A stretch of 64,000 nucleotides of DNA, from assembly GCF_028285745.1 (NCBI RefSeq), contig NZ_JANQOP010000232.1, positions 1-64,000 of the forward strand. Reading direction: 5' to 3'. A model generated the notes under the pieces. That model did not search any database and was not told the origin of the DNA. It worked only from the letters and a program-made list of their open reading frames with translations. Below, one piece after another: positions 51,476 to 57,382 of the stretch. Each line of letters opens with the position of its first letter. The stretch's first letter is position 1. This stretch comes from Acaryochloris sp. IP29b_bin.137 (GTDB lineage Bacteria > Cyanobacteriota > Cyanobacteriia > Thermosynechococcales > Thermosynechococcaceae). Both the position numbers and the translations under genes were made by a program.

Positions 51476-51654
51476 ATTGATCCAGCGTGGGTTGCTTGAC
51501 AGACTAGTGCTCAGCTCTATTCTGTCTCGTAAGACTTTGTAAAGCGATGTTAGGATTGAAGCAATTTAGGGGCAACTTAGCAATTTAACGTGCAGTAATG
51601 CGACTCAGGCCGTAGATATAGCTGCTGATAGGCGTCACTTAAAAGCATATAGCC

Positions 51655-52197
51655 ATGACCTCCTCTGAAAAAAAAATAGCTCCTCCATCTGCTCCAAACG
51701 ACCAGCCTGAAGTTAATCAGCCGGGAGAAGCGACACTTGCTTCTCCAACCAATCAAGATGTCGATCTCAATACCCTGAATAAAATTAGGGATCTTCTATT
51801 CGGTCAACAGGTTCAAAAGCACGAGCAACAGCTCACCCAATTAGAAAATCGGTTAAATCAAGAATGTGCCGATATCCGCCATCAAATCGACCAACGCTTA
51901 CAAGCCTTGGAAACTTCCATTCAAAAGGAGCTAAAAGCGTTAACCAAGACCTTGCAAACTAATCATGATGCCCAAACCGCTGCTTTATCTGATTTTCATC
52001 AAGAGTATGACAAAGGAATATCGGCAGTGGAAGCGCAGATTGAGCAGATGGGCGATAACTTGACCCAAAAGCATGATGAACTGAGGGCCCTCTTAGAGCG
52101 AGAAGTGCAAGAGCTGAACACCGTCGATGATACGGATCGTGCTCATTTAGCCGATCTCTTTAGTGAATTAGCACTCAATATCCGTGCCAGCCGATAG
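51655..52197 (+). CDS. Coiled-coil protein, first gene of the OmpA/GTPase cluster
   Basis: 180 residues, soluble. Residues 1-35 are Pro/Ser/Ala-rich and disordered. Then LNTLNKIRDLLFGQQVQKHEQQLTQLENRL begins a coiled coil running to about residue 160. The LRxLLxG start of the coil recurs in the next protein (LTELRSLLIGPDLKERF), suggesting a shared docking segment. It precedes the OmpA-type gene by 180 bases on the same strand. No known family. Confidence 0.75.
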   Translation: MTSSEKKIAPPSAPNDQPEVNQPGEATLASPTNQDVDLNTLNKIRDLLFGQQVQKHEQQLTQLENRLNQECADIRHQIDQRLQALETSIQKELKALTKTLQTNHDAQTAALSDFHQEYDKGISAVEAQIEQMGDNLTQKHDELRALLEREVQELNTVDDTDRAHLADLFSELALNIRASR

Positions 52198-52379
52198 CTA
52201 TTGCCGTGAATTTTGGCTGTTCAAGCACTTATTTTTTGATTGACTGTACTGGGGCGTAAGATTGCAGAATCGATTTTTAAGCCCTCTGACATCGATAATG
52301 CCCCAAATAATTTCAGTATTGCTATCGTCGCTATCTATAATTAGACATCAATTGACTCTATCATCGCCTTTTATGTGCA

Positions 52380-54140
52380 ATGAGTGACTCACCTGCTAAA
52401 CCCCACCAGGAATCCCCTGTCCCTCACCCAGAAGAGGAGAATATCGCCAGTGACCTGACTGAGCTGCGGAGTCTGCTGATTGGACCTGACCTGAAAGAAC
52501 GCTTTGAAAATTCAAAACTCCGCTCAGAGGATGTGAGTCGCGTGTTGCCAGACGCGATTCATCTCAGTGCCCAGACTGATGATTCAGCTTTCCCCAGGGC
52601 GATGGTGCCAACAGTTGAGCAGGCCATCAAATCCTCTGTCAATACGGACCAAAATATCTTGTCAGAAGCACTGTTCCCCATTATGGGACCTGCGATTCGA
52701 AAAGCGATCGCAGCTGCCATTCAGAACTTGATCGATTCCTTGAACCAGAGCTTAGAGCACAGCCTTTCTCCCCAAAGTCTGAACTGGCGATTTGAAGCCT
52801 GGCGAACTGGCAAGTCTTTTGCGGAAGTTCTATTATTACGAACCTTAGTCTATCAGGTTGAACAAGTCTTTCTGATACACAAAACCTCTGGTTTAGTTCT
52901 TCGGCATCTCGCGGCCGCGACGGCTGCTGCCCAAGATGCAGACTTGGTATCAGCCATGTTTACGGCCATTCAAGACTTTGTGCGCGACTCTTTCAGCGTT
53001 AGCGATGACACCCTAGGGAGTCTCCAAGTGGGGGAGTTAACCATTTGGGTGAATGAAGGCCCCCAAGCTATTATTGCCTGCGTTATTCGAGGTAACCCAC
53101 CGGGCCGCCTGCGGCAAACCATGGAAAATGCTCTAGAGCGAATTCATCTCGTTCAAGAACGGCAACTGCATGGGTTTCAGGGGGATAGCAGTGCCTTTGA
53201 ACCCAGCCAGCCCTACCTAGAAGACTGTTTACTGTCCCAGTACCAAACGAAACAGAAGCGCTCTTTGCCCTTAAAGTGGATCGGTGGCGTCGTTGGAATG
53301 ATCATTTTAGGACTCGGGGCATGGGGGATTTGGTCTACCCACGAACGGCATCAAGTTCAGAACTTTGTCGACCAACTCAACCAAGCCCCCGGCATTGTTG
53401 TCTTACAAACCCAAAAACAGGACGGCCAATATGTGATATCGGGGCTAAAGGATCCCTTAGCTGCTGAGCCCACCCAACTGATCGCCAAGACGGACCTCGA
53501 TCCAAATAAAATTGATTTCCGGTGGGAACCCTATTTATCCTTCGATCCTGCATTTGTTCAATCTAGAGTGACATCGCTTCTCCAGCCCCCTAAAACGGTC
53601 ACCTTAGACATGGATGCCAATGGCGCGGTTCATGTCAAAGGAACGGCCTCTCAAGCTTGGATTACCCAAGCCAATCAGTTGGCCTTGCGACTGCCCAATA
53701 TCACCCAATTCAATACCCAGCACGTGGTTCCTCTGGAAGCAGGAGTACTCGCTGACATTAAAGCCAAAATTGAAGATCAAACCCTCTTCTTTACGCAAAA
53801 TGCTCAGTTGGTGCCCAAACAAGATGCCAAACTTAGAATCCTGGTGAAAGAAATCAAAAAGCTGACTCAAACAGCAGAAACCATTCATCAAACTGTTGCT
53901 GTTTTAGTGGAAGGACATACGGATACCAGCGGGTCTGAGCAGACTAATCTTTATGTCCGAGAGGCCCGGGCAAAAGCAATCATCTCGTTGTTATCAAAGC
54001 AGGGCATTAAGAAAAGTCTCTTTCACCCCGTGAGTATTGAATCTTCTGAGGGTGCAACTTCAGATGCAACTCAGGTCTCCCAATCCAATCGCAAGGTCAC
54101 CTTCAAAATTATTTTTGTTCATCCATCAGACGCTGATTAA
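52380..54140 (+). CDS. OmpA-type envelope protein with roadblock/longin-like cytoplasmic region
   Basis: 586 residues. Residues 20-130 hold LTELRSLLIGPDLKERFENSKLRSEDVSRVLPDAI and LFPIMGPAIRKAIAAAIQ. Residues 160-265 (QVFLIHKTSGLVLRHLAAAT..LVSAMFTAIQDFVRDSF..LQVGELTIWVNEGPQAIIACVIRGNPP) have the alpha/beta rhythm of a roadblock or longin module. A single helix lies at about 300-318 (GGVVGMIILGLGAWGIWS), and the periplasmic part ends in an OmpA/MotB peptidoglycan-binding domain (VAVLVEGHTDTSGSEQTN). It should link the cytoplasm to the wall. The Rab-like GTPase follows six bases later. The roadblock assignment is an inference. Confidence 0.8.
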   Translation: MSDSPAKPHQESPVPHPEEENIASDLTELRSLLIGPDLKERFENSKLRSEDVSRVLPDAIHLSAQTDDSAFPRAMVPTVEQAIKSSVNTDQNILSEALFPIMGPAIRKAIAAAIQNLIDSLNQSLEHSLSPQSLNWRFEAWRTGKSFAEVLLLRTLVYQVEQVFLIHKTSGLVLRHLAAATAAAQDADLVSAMFTAIQDFVRDSFSVSDDTLGSLQVGELTIWVNEGPQAIIACVIRGNPPGRLRQTMENALERIHLVQERQLHGFQGDSSAFEPSQPYLEDCLLSQYQTKQKRSLPLKWIGGVVGMIILGLGAWGIWSTHERHQVQNFVDQLNQAPGIVVLQTQKQDGQYVISGLKDPLAAEPTQLIAKTDLDPNKIDFRWEPYLSFDPAFVQSRVTSLLQPPKTVTLDMDANGAVHVKGTASQAWITQANQLALRLPNITQFNTQHVVPLEAGVLADIKAKIEDQTLFFTQNAQLVPKQDAKLRILVKEIKKLTQTAETIHQTVAVLVEGHTDTSGSEQTNLYVREARAKAIISLLSKQGIKKSLFHPVSIESSEGATSDATQVSQSNRKVTFKIIFVHPSDAD

Positions 54141-54146
54141 TTGCTT

Positions 54147-54641
54147 ATGCTCCAAAAAAAAATTTGTATGGTCGGTGCATTTGCAACTGGCAAAACTAGC
54201 CTGGTCGCTCGATACGTTCAAGGCATTTATTCTGATAAATATCAGACAACGGTTGGTGTCAAAATTGATAAAAAAACTGTAAGTGTCTTAGGTCAAGAAT
54301 TAAACTTAATTCTATGGGATATCCATGGAGAAGATGAATTTCAGAAAATCAAAATGTCTTACTTGCGGGGTTCTGCAGGCTATATATTGGTGGTCGATGG
54401 GACCCGCAGAGATACCTTAGGTACGGTCTTTCAATTACAAGCTAAGGCTAAAGAAACGATTGGCGACGTGCCATTTATTACCATCATCAATAAGTACGAC
54501 CTCAATCAAGACTGGGAAATTGGCGAGGAAGAACTCGACGAACTATCTCAGCGAGAATGGACGTACTTGATGGGGAGTGCAAGGACTGGATTGGGAGTAG
54601 AAGAGTGCTTTACAAAACTGGCGCAAATGATGATTTACTGA
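54147..54641 (+). CDS. Rab/Ras-like small GTPase
   Basis: 164 residues from the ATG at 54147. All five G motifs are present: GAFATGKT (10-17), the switch-I Thr in QTTVGVK, DIHGED (58-63) with Glu where Ras has the catalytic Gln, NKYD (115-118) and SAR (144-146). No lipidation Cys at the end. Bacterial Rab-like GTPases such as MglA work with roadblock-domain partners; the preceding gene encodes a plausible one. Tightly packed between the OmpA gene and the cyclase-like gene. Confidence 0.9.
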   Translation: MLQKKICMVGAFATGKTSLVARYVQGIYSDKYQTTVGVKIDKKTVSVLGQELNLILWDIHGEDEFQKIKMSYLRGSAGYILVVDGTRRDTLGTVFQLQAKAKETIGDVPFITIINKYDLNQDWEIGEEELDELSQREWTYLMGSARTGLGVEECFTKLAQMMIY

Positions 54642-54644
54642 CAA

Positions 54645-55637
54645 ATGTTAAACCTTCCAGAACCGATTGTTACATTCCTTTGTTCAACCGTTGTTCGAGA
54701 TCGCTTTCCTGCCTATTTACACATGGATAAAGCGGGTCATCTCCTGGCCTTTGGTGGAGCCTGCGATCGCTACGGGATGCATCATCTCAGCCTCGATCAA
54801 TCCGTTGATGAACAAATTTATTTTTTAGCGGGCTTGCTTCCCCTGCAAGAAGCAGCCATGCATATTCCTTTTTTGCAAATTGAAGCAGATATTGTGGCCG
54901 AGGTGCATCTCTTCACCGCACAAGAAGAAGATTGGGCTATCTTCTTTGATGCAACCACTGAAAATGCCAAAAACGTGCTTATTCAGCAAAAAGTCAATGA
55001 CTTAAGTTTGCTCCGACGCAAGCAGGCTCAGTCTCTCGATCATTTGATTCACCCCGAAAGCGTTGCCGAGTCCATTCTAGATATTCAACCGGCTGGCGAA
55101 CAAAAGTCCCTAACGATTTTAGTGATTAAATGTTGCAACATTAGCGGCACTCACCAGACCACAGCGAATCCGCTAAAAGCGCTGGATGCTTATCTGTCGA
55201 CGATTTCTCCCCTTATTTTGGATGAAGGAGGACTGATCCATCAGAGTATTGGCAATTCCATTGTTGCGGTATTTGGAGCCTTGCCATCCATGCGGAGCGC
55301 GCCGGAGCAAGCCGTTGCCGCCAGTAGCCGGATTTTGGAGATTTGCCAAGGCGATCATGCTCTAAAGGGAACTCAGGCGGAATGTGCACTAGTGATTACC
55401 ACTGGAAGAGCAACCATCGGTTTGCTGCAAGTAGGATTTGGGAAAACCCTGTCTGTTATGGGACCGCCGATGGAGGTTGCGATGCATTTGAATAAAAATT
55501 CAGAAGCTGGGGCGTTGATCATCGACAAACCGACCTTTGATGGGCTAGATCAAAGGCAGCGGTCTTTTGTACCTGCGGCTGTCACAGAGTCTTCAGTGAT
55601 GGCAGGTTCCCCCCTATATGCCTATCGCCAACTGTAA
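54645..55637 (+). CDS. Cyclase-homology protein lacking catalytic residues
   Basis: 330 residues. Residues 1-110 are PAS-like (FPAYLHMDKAGHLLAFGGACDRYG). Residues 150-325 have the class III nucleotide cyclase layout: LTILVIKCCNISG, GGLIHQSIGNSIVAVFGAL, CALVITTGRATIGLLQVG and LSVMGPPMEVAMHLNK. The two metal aspartates are replaced (Lys/Cys in the first motif, Asn in GNSIVAVFG), and the transition-state Asn and Arg are missing. It is probably a binding or regulatory protein rather than a cyclase. It overlaps the next gene by one base (TAATG). Confidence 0.75.
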   Translation: MLNLPEPIVTFLCSTVVRDRFPAYLHMDKAGHLLAFGGACDRYGMHHLSLDQSVDEQIYFLAGLLPLQEAAMHIPFLQIEADIVAEVHLFTAQEEDWAIFFDATTENAKNVLIQQKVNDLSLLRRKQAQSLDHLIHPESVAESILDIQPAGEQKSLTILVIKCCNISGTHQTTANPLKALDAYLSTISPLILDEGGLIHQSIGNSIVAVFGALPSMRSAPEQAVAASSRILEICQGDHALKGTQAECALVITTGRATIGLLQVGFGKTLSVMGPPMEVAMHLNKNSEAGALIIDKPTFDGLDQRQRSFVPAAVTESSVMAGSPLYAYRQL

Positions 55638-57382
55638 TGACGGAATCCCTCCCTGCGCATATACTTGCAGCTTTAGAAATTCTGATCTTAGAGCGGACAG
55701 ACATCAATGCCTTCAAAATTGTGGGGGCTCTGCCCACCTGGTTTGCCACACTGTATCCTCAGGTTTCTCAGTCGGTTGATCGGCCTTGGATAGAAGAGCA
55801 TTTGCCATTTTTAGCTAATTTCTTGGTTGATGCGGCTGAGTTCTGGCAACAGAATCAATCAGGCATATACAAATCTGGGATGTGGTGCGAAACCGATCAT
55901 CGTCGTCAAGAAATTCATCTTGAAGCCTCTGCATTATCTCTGGGCTGCAAAAAGGTCCTTTTAGTCAAAGCGTCTGAGGGAGACTATATTGAGCTATTGT
56001 CCTTTATCCAGAAAGCGCGAGACAGTACGCTGGATTTCATCGAAGAACGCAAGCAAGCCAGTGAAAGTATTCTCAAAACAACGTTCTATGATGCATTGAC
56101 GGGCCTGCCAAACCAAACTTACTTTCTGATCCAACTGGCCCATACCTTTGAGCGGTATCGACGGAAAGAAGCTTACCATTTTGCCATCTTGATCATTAAT
56201 ATTGATCGCTTCCAAAGCATCAATGATAGTTTTGGCCGGTTAGCCGGCGATCAACTCCTGATCTCGATCGCATGGCGTCTCAAAAAGTGTGTGAGGGATT
56301 TTGATATCTTTGCCCGTTTGGGAGGAGATGAATTTATTGTCCTGTTGGATGATATAGACACCAACAGTGCAGCCTTGCTAGCTGCAAATCGGATATCGGC
56401 GGAATTGAAAACGCCCTTTCGTCTCAGTGGTCAAGAATTATTTCTAACGGCCAGTGTGGGGATTGCCCAAACCTTCTTGGACTATGACCGAGCAGAGGAT
56501 TTACTGCGTGATGCAAATACTGCTGTTAGTTATGCCAAAGGTATTGGGCGAGCGAATTATGTTGTCTTTGATCCAACGATGCATGCCCGGGCAGTGCGAT
56601 TATTGCAGCTTGAAAATGATTTAAAGCGGGCGCTTCAAGAGCAAGAGCTGAACGTATTTTTTCAGCCAATTGTCTGTTTAGCCGATCAAAGAATTATTGG
56701 TTTTGAAGCGTTAGTCCGATGGATGCATCCTAAATTAGGCCTAGTCTCTCCATTAGAGTTTATTCCGATTGCGGAAGAAACAGGTTTAATCTACGCCATT
56801 GATCGCTGGATGTTAAAGGAGGCCTGTTTTCGGATTCAGCAGTGGCGAAAATTTACGGAGGAACCGTTGTCGGTCAGTGTCAATTTTTCTGCAAAACAGT
56901 TTGATCAGGCGGATGTTGTCTTTCAAGTGCAGCAGGTGTTGCGGGAAACGGGGATTGCCCCTCAACACTTAATGATTGAGATTACTGAAAGTATGTTGTT
57001 TAGTAAAGCTCAATCAGCTGTGGATACGCTCTATCAGCTCAAACAGACTGGGGTGGGATTAAGCATTGATGACTTTGGCACGGGATATGCCTCGCTGCAA
57101 TATTTACAGCAATTGCCCGTGGATACCCTCAAGATTGATCGCTCTTTTATTAAACAAATGGATGTTGATCATCTTGATTTGGTGCGGTCCATCATTGAAC
57201 TGGCTCATGACTTGGGGATGAAAGTTACTGCTGAAGGCGTTGAAACGGCAGTCCAGCGGCGCTTCTTGCTCGATTTAGGATGCCAAGAGGCGCAAGGTCA
57301 TCTGTTCTCTGAACCCGTTGACGGTCAGGTTGCCGTAGAGTTATTACAGGCCAAAAAAATGAATGGCCTTAAAGATTGGTAA
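55637..57382 (+). CDS. GGDEF-EAL c-di-GMP turnover protein
   Basis: 581 residues. The N-terminal 140 residues are a sensor-like domain of no known family, ending in a helix (FIEERKQASESILK). GGDEF domain about 150-310 with an intact GGDEF (FARLGGDEFIVLL) and an RxxD inhibitory site (RDFD) five residues before it. EAL domain about 325-575 with intact EALVRW and DDFGTGYASL. Both synthesis and breakdown look possible. Last gene of the OmpA/GTPase cluster, start overlapping the previous stop. Confidence 0.93.
   Translation: MTESLPAHILAALEILILERTDINAFKIVGALPTWFATLYPQVSQSVDRPWIEEHLPFLANFLVDAAEFWQQNQSGIYKSGMWCETDHRRQEIHLEASALSLGCKKVLLVKASEGDYIELLSFIQKARDSTLDFIEERKQASESILKTTFYDALTGLPNQTYFLIQLAHTFERYRRKEAYHFAILIINIDRFQSINDSFGRLAGDQLLISIAWRLKKCVRDFDIFARLGGDEFIVLLDDIDTNSAALLAANRISAELKTPFRLSGQELFLTASVGIAQTFLDYDRAEDLLRDANTAVSYAKGIGRANYVVFDPTMHARAVRLLQLENDLKRALQEQELNVFFQPIVCLADQRIIGFEALVRWMHPKLGLVSPLEFIPIAEETGLIYAIDRWMLKEACFRIQQWRKFTEEPLSVSVNFSAKQFDQADVVFQVQQVLRETGIAPQHLMIEITESMLFSKAQSAVDTLYQLKQTGVGLSIDDFGTGYASLQYLQQLPVDTLKIDRSFIKQMDVDHLDLVRSIIELAHDLGMKVTAEGVETAVQRRFLLDLGCQEAQGHLFSEPVDGQVAVELLQAKKMNGLKDW

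Follow-up and report, generated by a model that had tools for sequence, protein, structure and literature searches.

The 64,000-nt stretch of Acaryochloris sp. IP29b_bin.137 contig NZ_JANQOP010000232.1 considered here (the window; positions are those of the whole stretch, forward strand) carries a five-gene operon at 51655-57382 whose products include a wall-binding OmpA protein, a Rab-like GTPase, and a GGDEF-EAL enzyme. By gene set and motifs it can be assigned to the Group 1 Rup-type systems, a class already described (Wuichet and Sogaard-Andersen, 2014; PMC4316618). The conserved unit is strongly supported: a coiled coil, an inner-membrane OmpA protein, a Rab-like GTPase in which the catalytic Gln is missing, and one or two adaptors on exchangeable outputs. 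We consider it moderately probable that this unit works as a transmembrane GTPase relay, from wall to GTPase to adaptors to output, with a longin-like regulator. The source genome is 88% complete, at 5.5 Mb.

The Rup branch of bacterial Ras-like GTPases groups with eukaryotic Rab/Ras/Rho; in the 2014 description no member had been characterized and no regulator was named for the branch (PMC4316618). No later experimental work on Group 1 systems was found in the literature searched. As defined there, Group 1 comprises a coiled-coil protein, a protein with an unknown domain followed by a transmembrane (TM) segment and an OmpA domain, a GTPase in which the G3 Gln is absent, and an output protein, GGDEF/EAL or histidine kinase, with an invariant Gln in its N-terminal domain. 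The corresponding features are all present in the operon: canonical G3 Asp, no G3 Gln, no MglB coupling, coiled-coil and TM-OmpA genes, and an invariant-Gln adaptor.

All five open reading frames (ORFs) are on the forward strand: a 180-aa coiled-coil protein (51655..52197), a 586-aa protein with longin-like, TM, periplasmic, and OmpA portions (52380..54140), the Rup/Rab-like small GTPase (54141..54641), a 330-aa adaptor plus pseudo-cyclase protein (54645..55637), and a 581-aa adaptor-GGDEF-EAL protein (55637..57382). A preliminary description, made from the sequence alone, had reported five packed same-strand genes with near-touching or overlapping starts from the OmpA gene onward, and the ORFs, coordinates, strand, and spacing all agree with it. 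From the OmpA gene to the GGDEF-EAL gene, neighbors touch or overlap: the OmpA stop is followed after 0-6 nt by the GTPase start (TTG 54141 or, as homologues favor and is more probable, ATG 54147), the GTPase and pseudo-cyclase genes are 3 nt apart, and at 55635-55639 a TAATG joins the pseudo-cyclase stop to the GGDEF-EAL ATG, suggesting translational coupling of these two. The OmpA, Rab-like GTPase, and GGDEF-EAL products named in that description are likewise borne out, by Pfam OmpA, Ras, GGDEF, and EAL matches.

A scan of ~85,000 species genomes yielded 356 related stretches, the best 80 of which are covered by the locus counts given here. In 76/78 loci the OmpA gene is preceded by the coiled-coil gene, and in 67/70 it is followed by the GTPase gene; the first adaptor (deadN, on the pseudo-cyclase protein) is found in 58/70 loci and the second (gN, on the GGDEF-EAL protein) in 66/70, with a median GTPase-deadN spacing of 0 nt over the loci compared. 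The five genes, whose lack of co-conservation would have spoken against a common system, are thus co-conserved. Because the gene order recurs in cyanobacteria, Acidobacteriota, a deltaproteobacterial lineage, and rhizobial plasmids, it is far beyond chance. The OmpA-protein family itself was found in 47 of 386 sampled cyanobacteria, with full-length matches at 40-47% identity in the source genome and 11 others of the 47, and most of the remaining cyanobacterial relatives in a divergent clade at ~25% identity. Even in this clade, most loci keep the order coiled coil-OmpA-GTPase-effector. Further relatives are in 16 of 297 sampled Acidobacteriota genomes, in 10 of 297 genomes from the deltaproteobacterial phylum (the phylum of L152), and on Rhizobium and Mesorhizobium plasmids. 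The closest relatives at the locus are Acaryochloris genomes. Comparison of the source locus with four relatives of this lineage gave fewer nonsynonymous (pN) than synonymous (pS) differences per site for every gene; all five are under purifying selection.

The GTPase is a single-domain protein of 164-166 aa (Pfam Ras, E = 1.6e-29), with recognizable G1 (GAFATGKT), G3 (DIHGE, including the canonical Asp), G4 (NKYD), and G5 (SAR) motifs. Its best PDB matches are Rabs, as predicted for the branch (PMC4316618). The catalytic G3 Gln is missing: E64 takes the position of Gln61, which is Glu in the close cyanobacterial clade and variable in the divergent one. There is no MglB/roadblock gene in the operon, and the genome's only Robl_LC7 match is on another contig. 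The source genome also has a second Ras/Rab-like GTPase, 42% identical to the first (G000:C31:10972-11442; L159:6967-7449, reverse strand). It is divergently oriented to an adjoining gene (L159:7957-8736, forward strand) for a 259-aa protein, the first 110 residues of which look roadblock-like by eye; this protein has no Pfam match. At one locus in the Acidobacteriota sample (L225), the OmpA gene is separated from the adaptor genes by two tandem GTPase genes, an arrangement that suggests a GTPase heterodimer.

The OmpA protein has one predicted TM helix (aa 299-321; 53274..53342) and, near its C-terminus, an OmpA peptidoglycan-binding domain (aa 470-570; 53787..54089; Pfam PF00691, E = 1.3e-9, also found by Foldseek). 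Since there is a single TM segment, near residue 300, followed by the OmpA domain, the first ~298 residues are predicted to be cytoplasmic and the OmpA end periplasmic. Between them is a periplasmic BON-like segment (approximately aa 339-435; 53394..53684), recognized by Foldseek matches to BonA and DolP; Pfam BON is found in longer relatives. Among Acaryochloris, conservation is stronger in the cytoplasmic half (pN 0.09-0.11) than in the periplasmic half (pN 0.15-0.24).

Within the cytoplasmic half, residues 147-285 (52818..53234) are predicted to form a longin-like domain. In the AlphaFold2 (AF2) model this region is a helix followed by b-b-a-b-b-b-a-a. A Foldseek search against the PDB listed, among the OmpA-domain matches, AP-1 sigma (E = 1.1e-3), COPI zeta (E = 1.3e-3), and an AP-3 chain (TMt 0.64), small coat subunits which are all longin folds. 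A 42-domain profile compared with PDB sequences aligned in register with TRAPP BET5, also a longin, at E = 0.72-1.3; this was the sole recognizable GTPase-regulator match. Pfam scans of the domain members found Fuz_longin_1 (FUZ/MON1/HPS1) in two (best E = 7.6e-4), and in a full-length 1203-aa relative from locus L060 the match (E = 8.7e-4) spans most of the Pfam model. In the converse search of 40 genomes with Fuz_longin_1, the two best matches, and the sole ones with E < 0.1, were to the cytoplasmic domain of OmpA proteins. The best longin profile match, that from L060, is at a locus without an adjoining GTPase gene. From these several weak, mostly convergent, and by sequence sub-threshold tests, we judge it quite likely that the domain is longin-like, and less likely that it is a longin by descent. 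Longins and roadblocks serve as platforms, guanine nucleotide exchange factors (GEFs), and sometimes GTPase-activating proteins for small GTPases (PMC10933270, PMC3521125), so a longin-like domain in a wall-anchored protein is a natural candidate for the regulator of this one.

Downstream of the GTPase, both proteins begin with an adaptor. In the 330-aa protein, AF2 predicts a PAS-like topology for deadN (aa 1-133; 54645..55043), with a helix after it; the domain has an invariant Q114-Q115, then N118 and L122 (39 sequences). In the 581-aa protein, gN (aa 1-140; 55637..56056) has an invariant Q125 (27 sequences), then R128 and L132. All adaptor types end in Q-x-x-[N/R]-x-x-x-L: Q115/N118/L122 in deadN, Q125/R128/L132 in gN, and Q126/N129/L133 in the divergent clade. 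The kinship of deadN and gN would rest on this common ending and on fusions, the two being joined in two Acidobacteriota proteins, deadN-gN-PAS (L223) and deadN-gN-histidine kinase (L226); the pseudo-cyclase and GGDEF-EAL proteins are therefore predicted to work together, and probably do. A comparison of deadN with the divergent-clade adaptor profile was suggestive (probability 69%), and one deadN protein matches that profile over almost its whole length. The invariant Gln of each adaptor (Q115, Q125) is presumed to be that of the 2014 figure, which was proposed to complete the hydrolysis site of a GTPase without its own (PMC4316618).

The remainder of the 330-aa protein (aa 150-330; 55092..55634) gave no Pfam cyclase match and nothing else meaningful in Pfam. 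Its predicted structure has a class III cyclase fold, with a Foldseek TM-score of ~0.8 to guanylate cyclases, and alignment with a rhizobial cyclase shows all four of the catalytic positions examined to be replaced (Asp to Lys, Asp to Asn, Asn to Val, and Arg to His). The "dead cyclase" of the preliminary description thus holds in fold and in catalytic residues, and the protein is predicted to be inactive. A DEAD-box match (E = 0.0027, below cut-off) is spurious given the cyclase fold. Nor is this a decaying pseudogene: the ORF is open in all Acaryochloris relatives, with pN ~0.2 vs. pS ~0.7, indicating purifying selection. In rhizobia the same adaptor is attached to an intact cyclase; the cyclase shows partial decay in Acidobacteria, Gloeocapsa, and UBA11371/Microseira; and in Nostocales the adaptor alone is left, at ~125-140 aa. 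This series suggests that what matters is the adaptor, with the dead cyclase most readily seen as an old output whose catalytic residues have been lost and whose adaptor has been kept.

The 581-aa protein has strong Pfam matches to GGDEF (E = 1.4e-41) and EAL (E = 1.6e-73). Its GGDEF domain (56084..56551) has an intact active site and I-site (RDFD), and its EAL domain (56615..57316) has the EALVRW, DDFGTGYASL, KID, and AEGVE motifs; the enzyme is predicted to be active. In nearly all other cyanobacterial loci and in Acidobacteriota, the gN partner is a histidine kinase. The GGDEF-EAL module appears to have replaced it once, in the Acaryochloris lineage, as read from a quick GTPase tree, many of whose branches are weak. 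In other relatives, gN is attached to GGDEF, HD, PP2C-type SpoIIE, a sigma-54 activator, or histidine kinase-REC-Hpt, and the divergent-clade adaptor to PAS-histidine kinase, GAF-GGDEF, or SpoIIE. The preliminary description had proposed one machine joining wall, Rab-like GTPase, and cyclic di-GMP (c-di-GMP), perhaps serving motility, polarity, or adhesion. The operon's anatomy and its strong co-conservation support the reading as one machine; c-di-GMP, however, is not of the essence, because most relatives have a histidine kinase in its place and others GGDEF, HD, PP2C, a sigma-54 activator, or a cyclase. The core is better described, from these comparisons, as wall-GTPase-adaptor with an exchangeable output.

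A mechanism can be proposed along these lines. Peptidoglycan would hold the OmpA protein, whose longin-like cytoplasmic domain would dock the GTPase at the membrane and set its nucleotide state, as longin and roadblock proteins do for Rabs, Arfs, and MglA. The GTP-bound form would bind the adaptors of both downstream proteins, and the invariant adaptor Gln may replace the absent catalytic one, in which case binding would read the GTP state and also end it. The pseudo-cyclase and GGDEF-EAL proteins would pair through their adaptors; with both sets of catalytic motifs and the I-site intact, the result in Acaryochloris would be a change in c-di-GMP, made or broken. In other lineages the same switch would be wired to kinases, phosphatases, or transcription activators.

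Several points weigh against this relay or parts of it. At the longin-like region, confidence in the AF2 model is moderate to low (mean predicted local distance difference test, pLDDT, 68 for the model, with blocks of ~40-84 across the region). The best member scores 24.4 bits with Fuz_longin_1 against a Pfam cut-off of 26.1, leaving the domain under threshold, and the domain of the operon itself is not matched. Across 40 genomes, neither the Sybindin (Bet5/Trs23, PF04099) nor the clathrin-adaptor (Clat_adaptor_s, PF01217) profile picked out the domain, both giving only noise elsewhere. A roadblock/LC7 identity failed in profile comparison with 24 roadblock domains and in a Robl_LC7 search of the same genomes, and longin is preferred over it. 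The comparison of deadN with gN by hhalign was not significant (E = 0.23), the 182 nt between the coiled-coil and OmpA genes leave room for a separate promoter, and the direction of the signal, from wall to enzymes, is one we infer.

The signal could conceivably run the other way, with the adaptor enzymes as inputs acting through their invariant Gln on the GTPase, the GTP form of which would change wall attachment by the longin-like/OmpA protein. The longin matches do include AP and COPI subunits, and it is Arf-GTP that recruits AP and COPI complexes; many sensors, moreover, are PAS-like domains. For the actinobacterial conservon the GTPase has been proposed as the output (PMC4316618), as the GTPase and OmpA protein would be here. 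The enzymes nevertheless vary as outputs would (kinase, cyclase, GGDEF, EAL, HD, PP2C, sigma-54 activator), sensor-type variation being confined to extra PAS or GAF domains in some members, and we consider this direction unlikely. A module like MglA-MglB, in which a polar GTPase places pili or adhesion machinery and c-di-GMP is a side control, seems quite unlikely. Ras-like GTPases and c-di-GMP each control motility in other bacteria, and the longin and MglB roadblock folds are related (PMC3521125), but the GTPase is of the Rup rather than the MglA type, with its canonical G3 Asp and no adjacent MglB, and no motility gene was recognized beside the unit, a weak point given that most flanking ORFs are unannotated. 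A structural role for the OmpA protein in the envelope, functionally unrelated to the GTPase that would be its neighbor by history only, is very improbable: OmpA domains are common, and four loci of the divergent OmpA clade (L055, L056, L060, L061) have no adjacent GTPase, but the adjacency holds in 67/70 close-clade loci and across phyla, and it is the cytoplasmic half that is the more conserved. These four loci, all from one cyanobacterial family (f11), encode 1200-aa OmpA relatives, with an upstream gene of similar size in each, 350 aa. A still longer OmpA-family relative, of 3113 aa (L215 ORF 01), is followed by ORFs not recognized as GTPase or adaptor genes.

The coiled-coil protein has a conserved N-terminal KIRDLLFG motif and a conserved C-terminal DRAHLADLFSELA helix, no TM segment, and nothing meaningful in a Pfam scan. 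It has an LLFG/LLxG motif in common with the N-terminus of the OmpA protein, a weak comparison. The 1021-aa rhizobial OmpA proteins (L072:7830-10895; L073:7839-10904), in which the periplasmic part is repeated about four times, open with a DRAALAILLVEIA helix resembling the end of the coiled-coil protein. Upstream of the operon is a weak promoter-like site, TTGACA-16-TATTCT (51496..51523, forward strand); a promoter and terminator scan of the region found no more sites than in shuffled sequence.

Returning to the wall-to-output relay, its strongest form would be a true bacterial Rab-longin switch, in which a peptidoglycan-anchored transmembrane longin regulates a Rab-like GTPase that drives interchangeable enzymes through a shared adaptor. 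This is a tentative proposal, and somewhat doubtful. If true, bacteria would have their own version of the Rab-longin pairing that is known in eukaryotes and has been proposed for Asgard archaea, along with a modular means of coupling wall state to almost any bacterial output. The longin-like domain gives a concrete regulator candidate and bears on the origin of the Rab-longin partnership; exchangeable outputs amount to one switch with plug-in enzymes, which would explain the c-di-GMP enzymes, phosphorelays, and transcription activators found beside the same GTPase.

Among known systems, the operon is most like Group 1 Rup, with a coiled-coil gene, an [unknown domain]-TM-OmpA gene, a Rab-like GTPase without the G3 Gln, and an invariant-Gln output enzyme; it differs in having two tandem adaptor proteins, one with a dead cyclase. 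In the 2014 description the unknown domain had not been assigned a fold, and the outputs listed were for the most part GGDEF/EAL and histidine kinase (PMC4316618); the present comparison adds a predicted longin-like fold and other types of output. Myxococcus MglA-MglB and the actinobacterial conservons also have a bacterial Ras-like GTPase gene beside regulators and signaling enzymes, but here the GTPase is of the Rup/Rab branch, without MglB, and the candidate regulator is a wall-anchored membrane protein. Eukaryotic longin Rab regulators (MON1-CCZ1, FUZ, HPS1, TRAPP Bet5/Trs23) similarly pair a Rab-like GTPase with what is here a probable longin-like domain; the similarity is sub-threshold, the bacterial domain is in a single-pass, peptidoglycan-binding protein, and its GEF role is putative. 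Class III cyclases (Cya2, CyaC, sGC) resemble the 330-aa protein in C-terminal fold and in the PAS-like domain and coiled coil before it, whereas the 330-aa protein lacks both metal-binding Asp residues and the transition-state Asn and Arg. Finally, MotB and Pal-type proteins have the same periplasmic OmpA peptidoglycan-binding end, and MotB is likewise a single-pass inner-membrane protein; the OmpA protein of this operon is set apart from both by its large conserved cytoplasmic domain, its BON-like segment, and the absence of a MotA-type partner.

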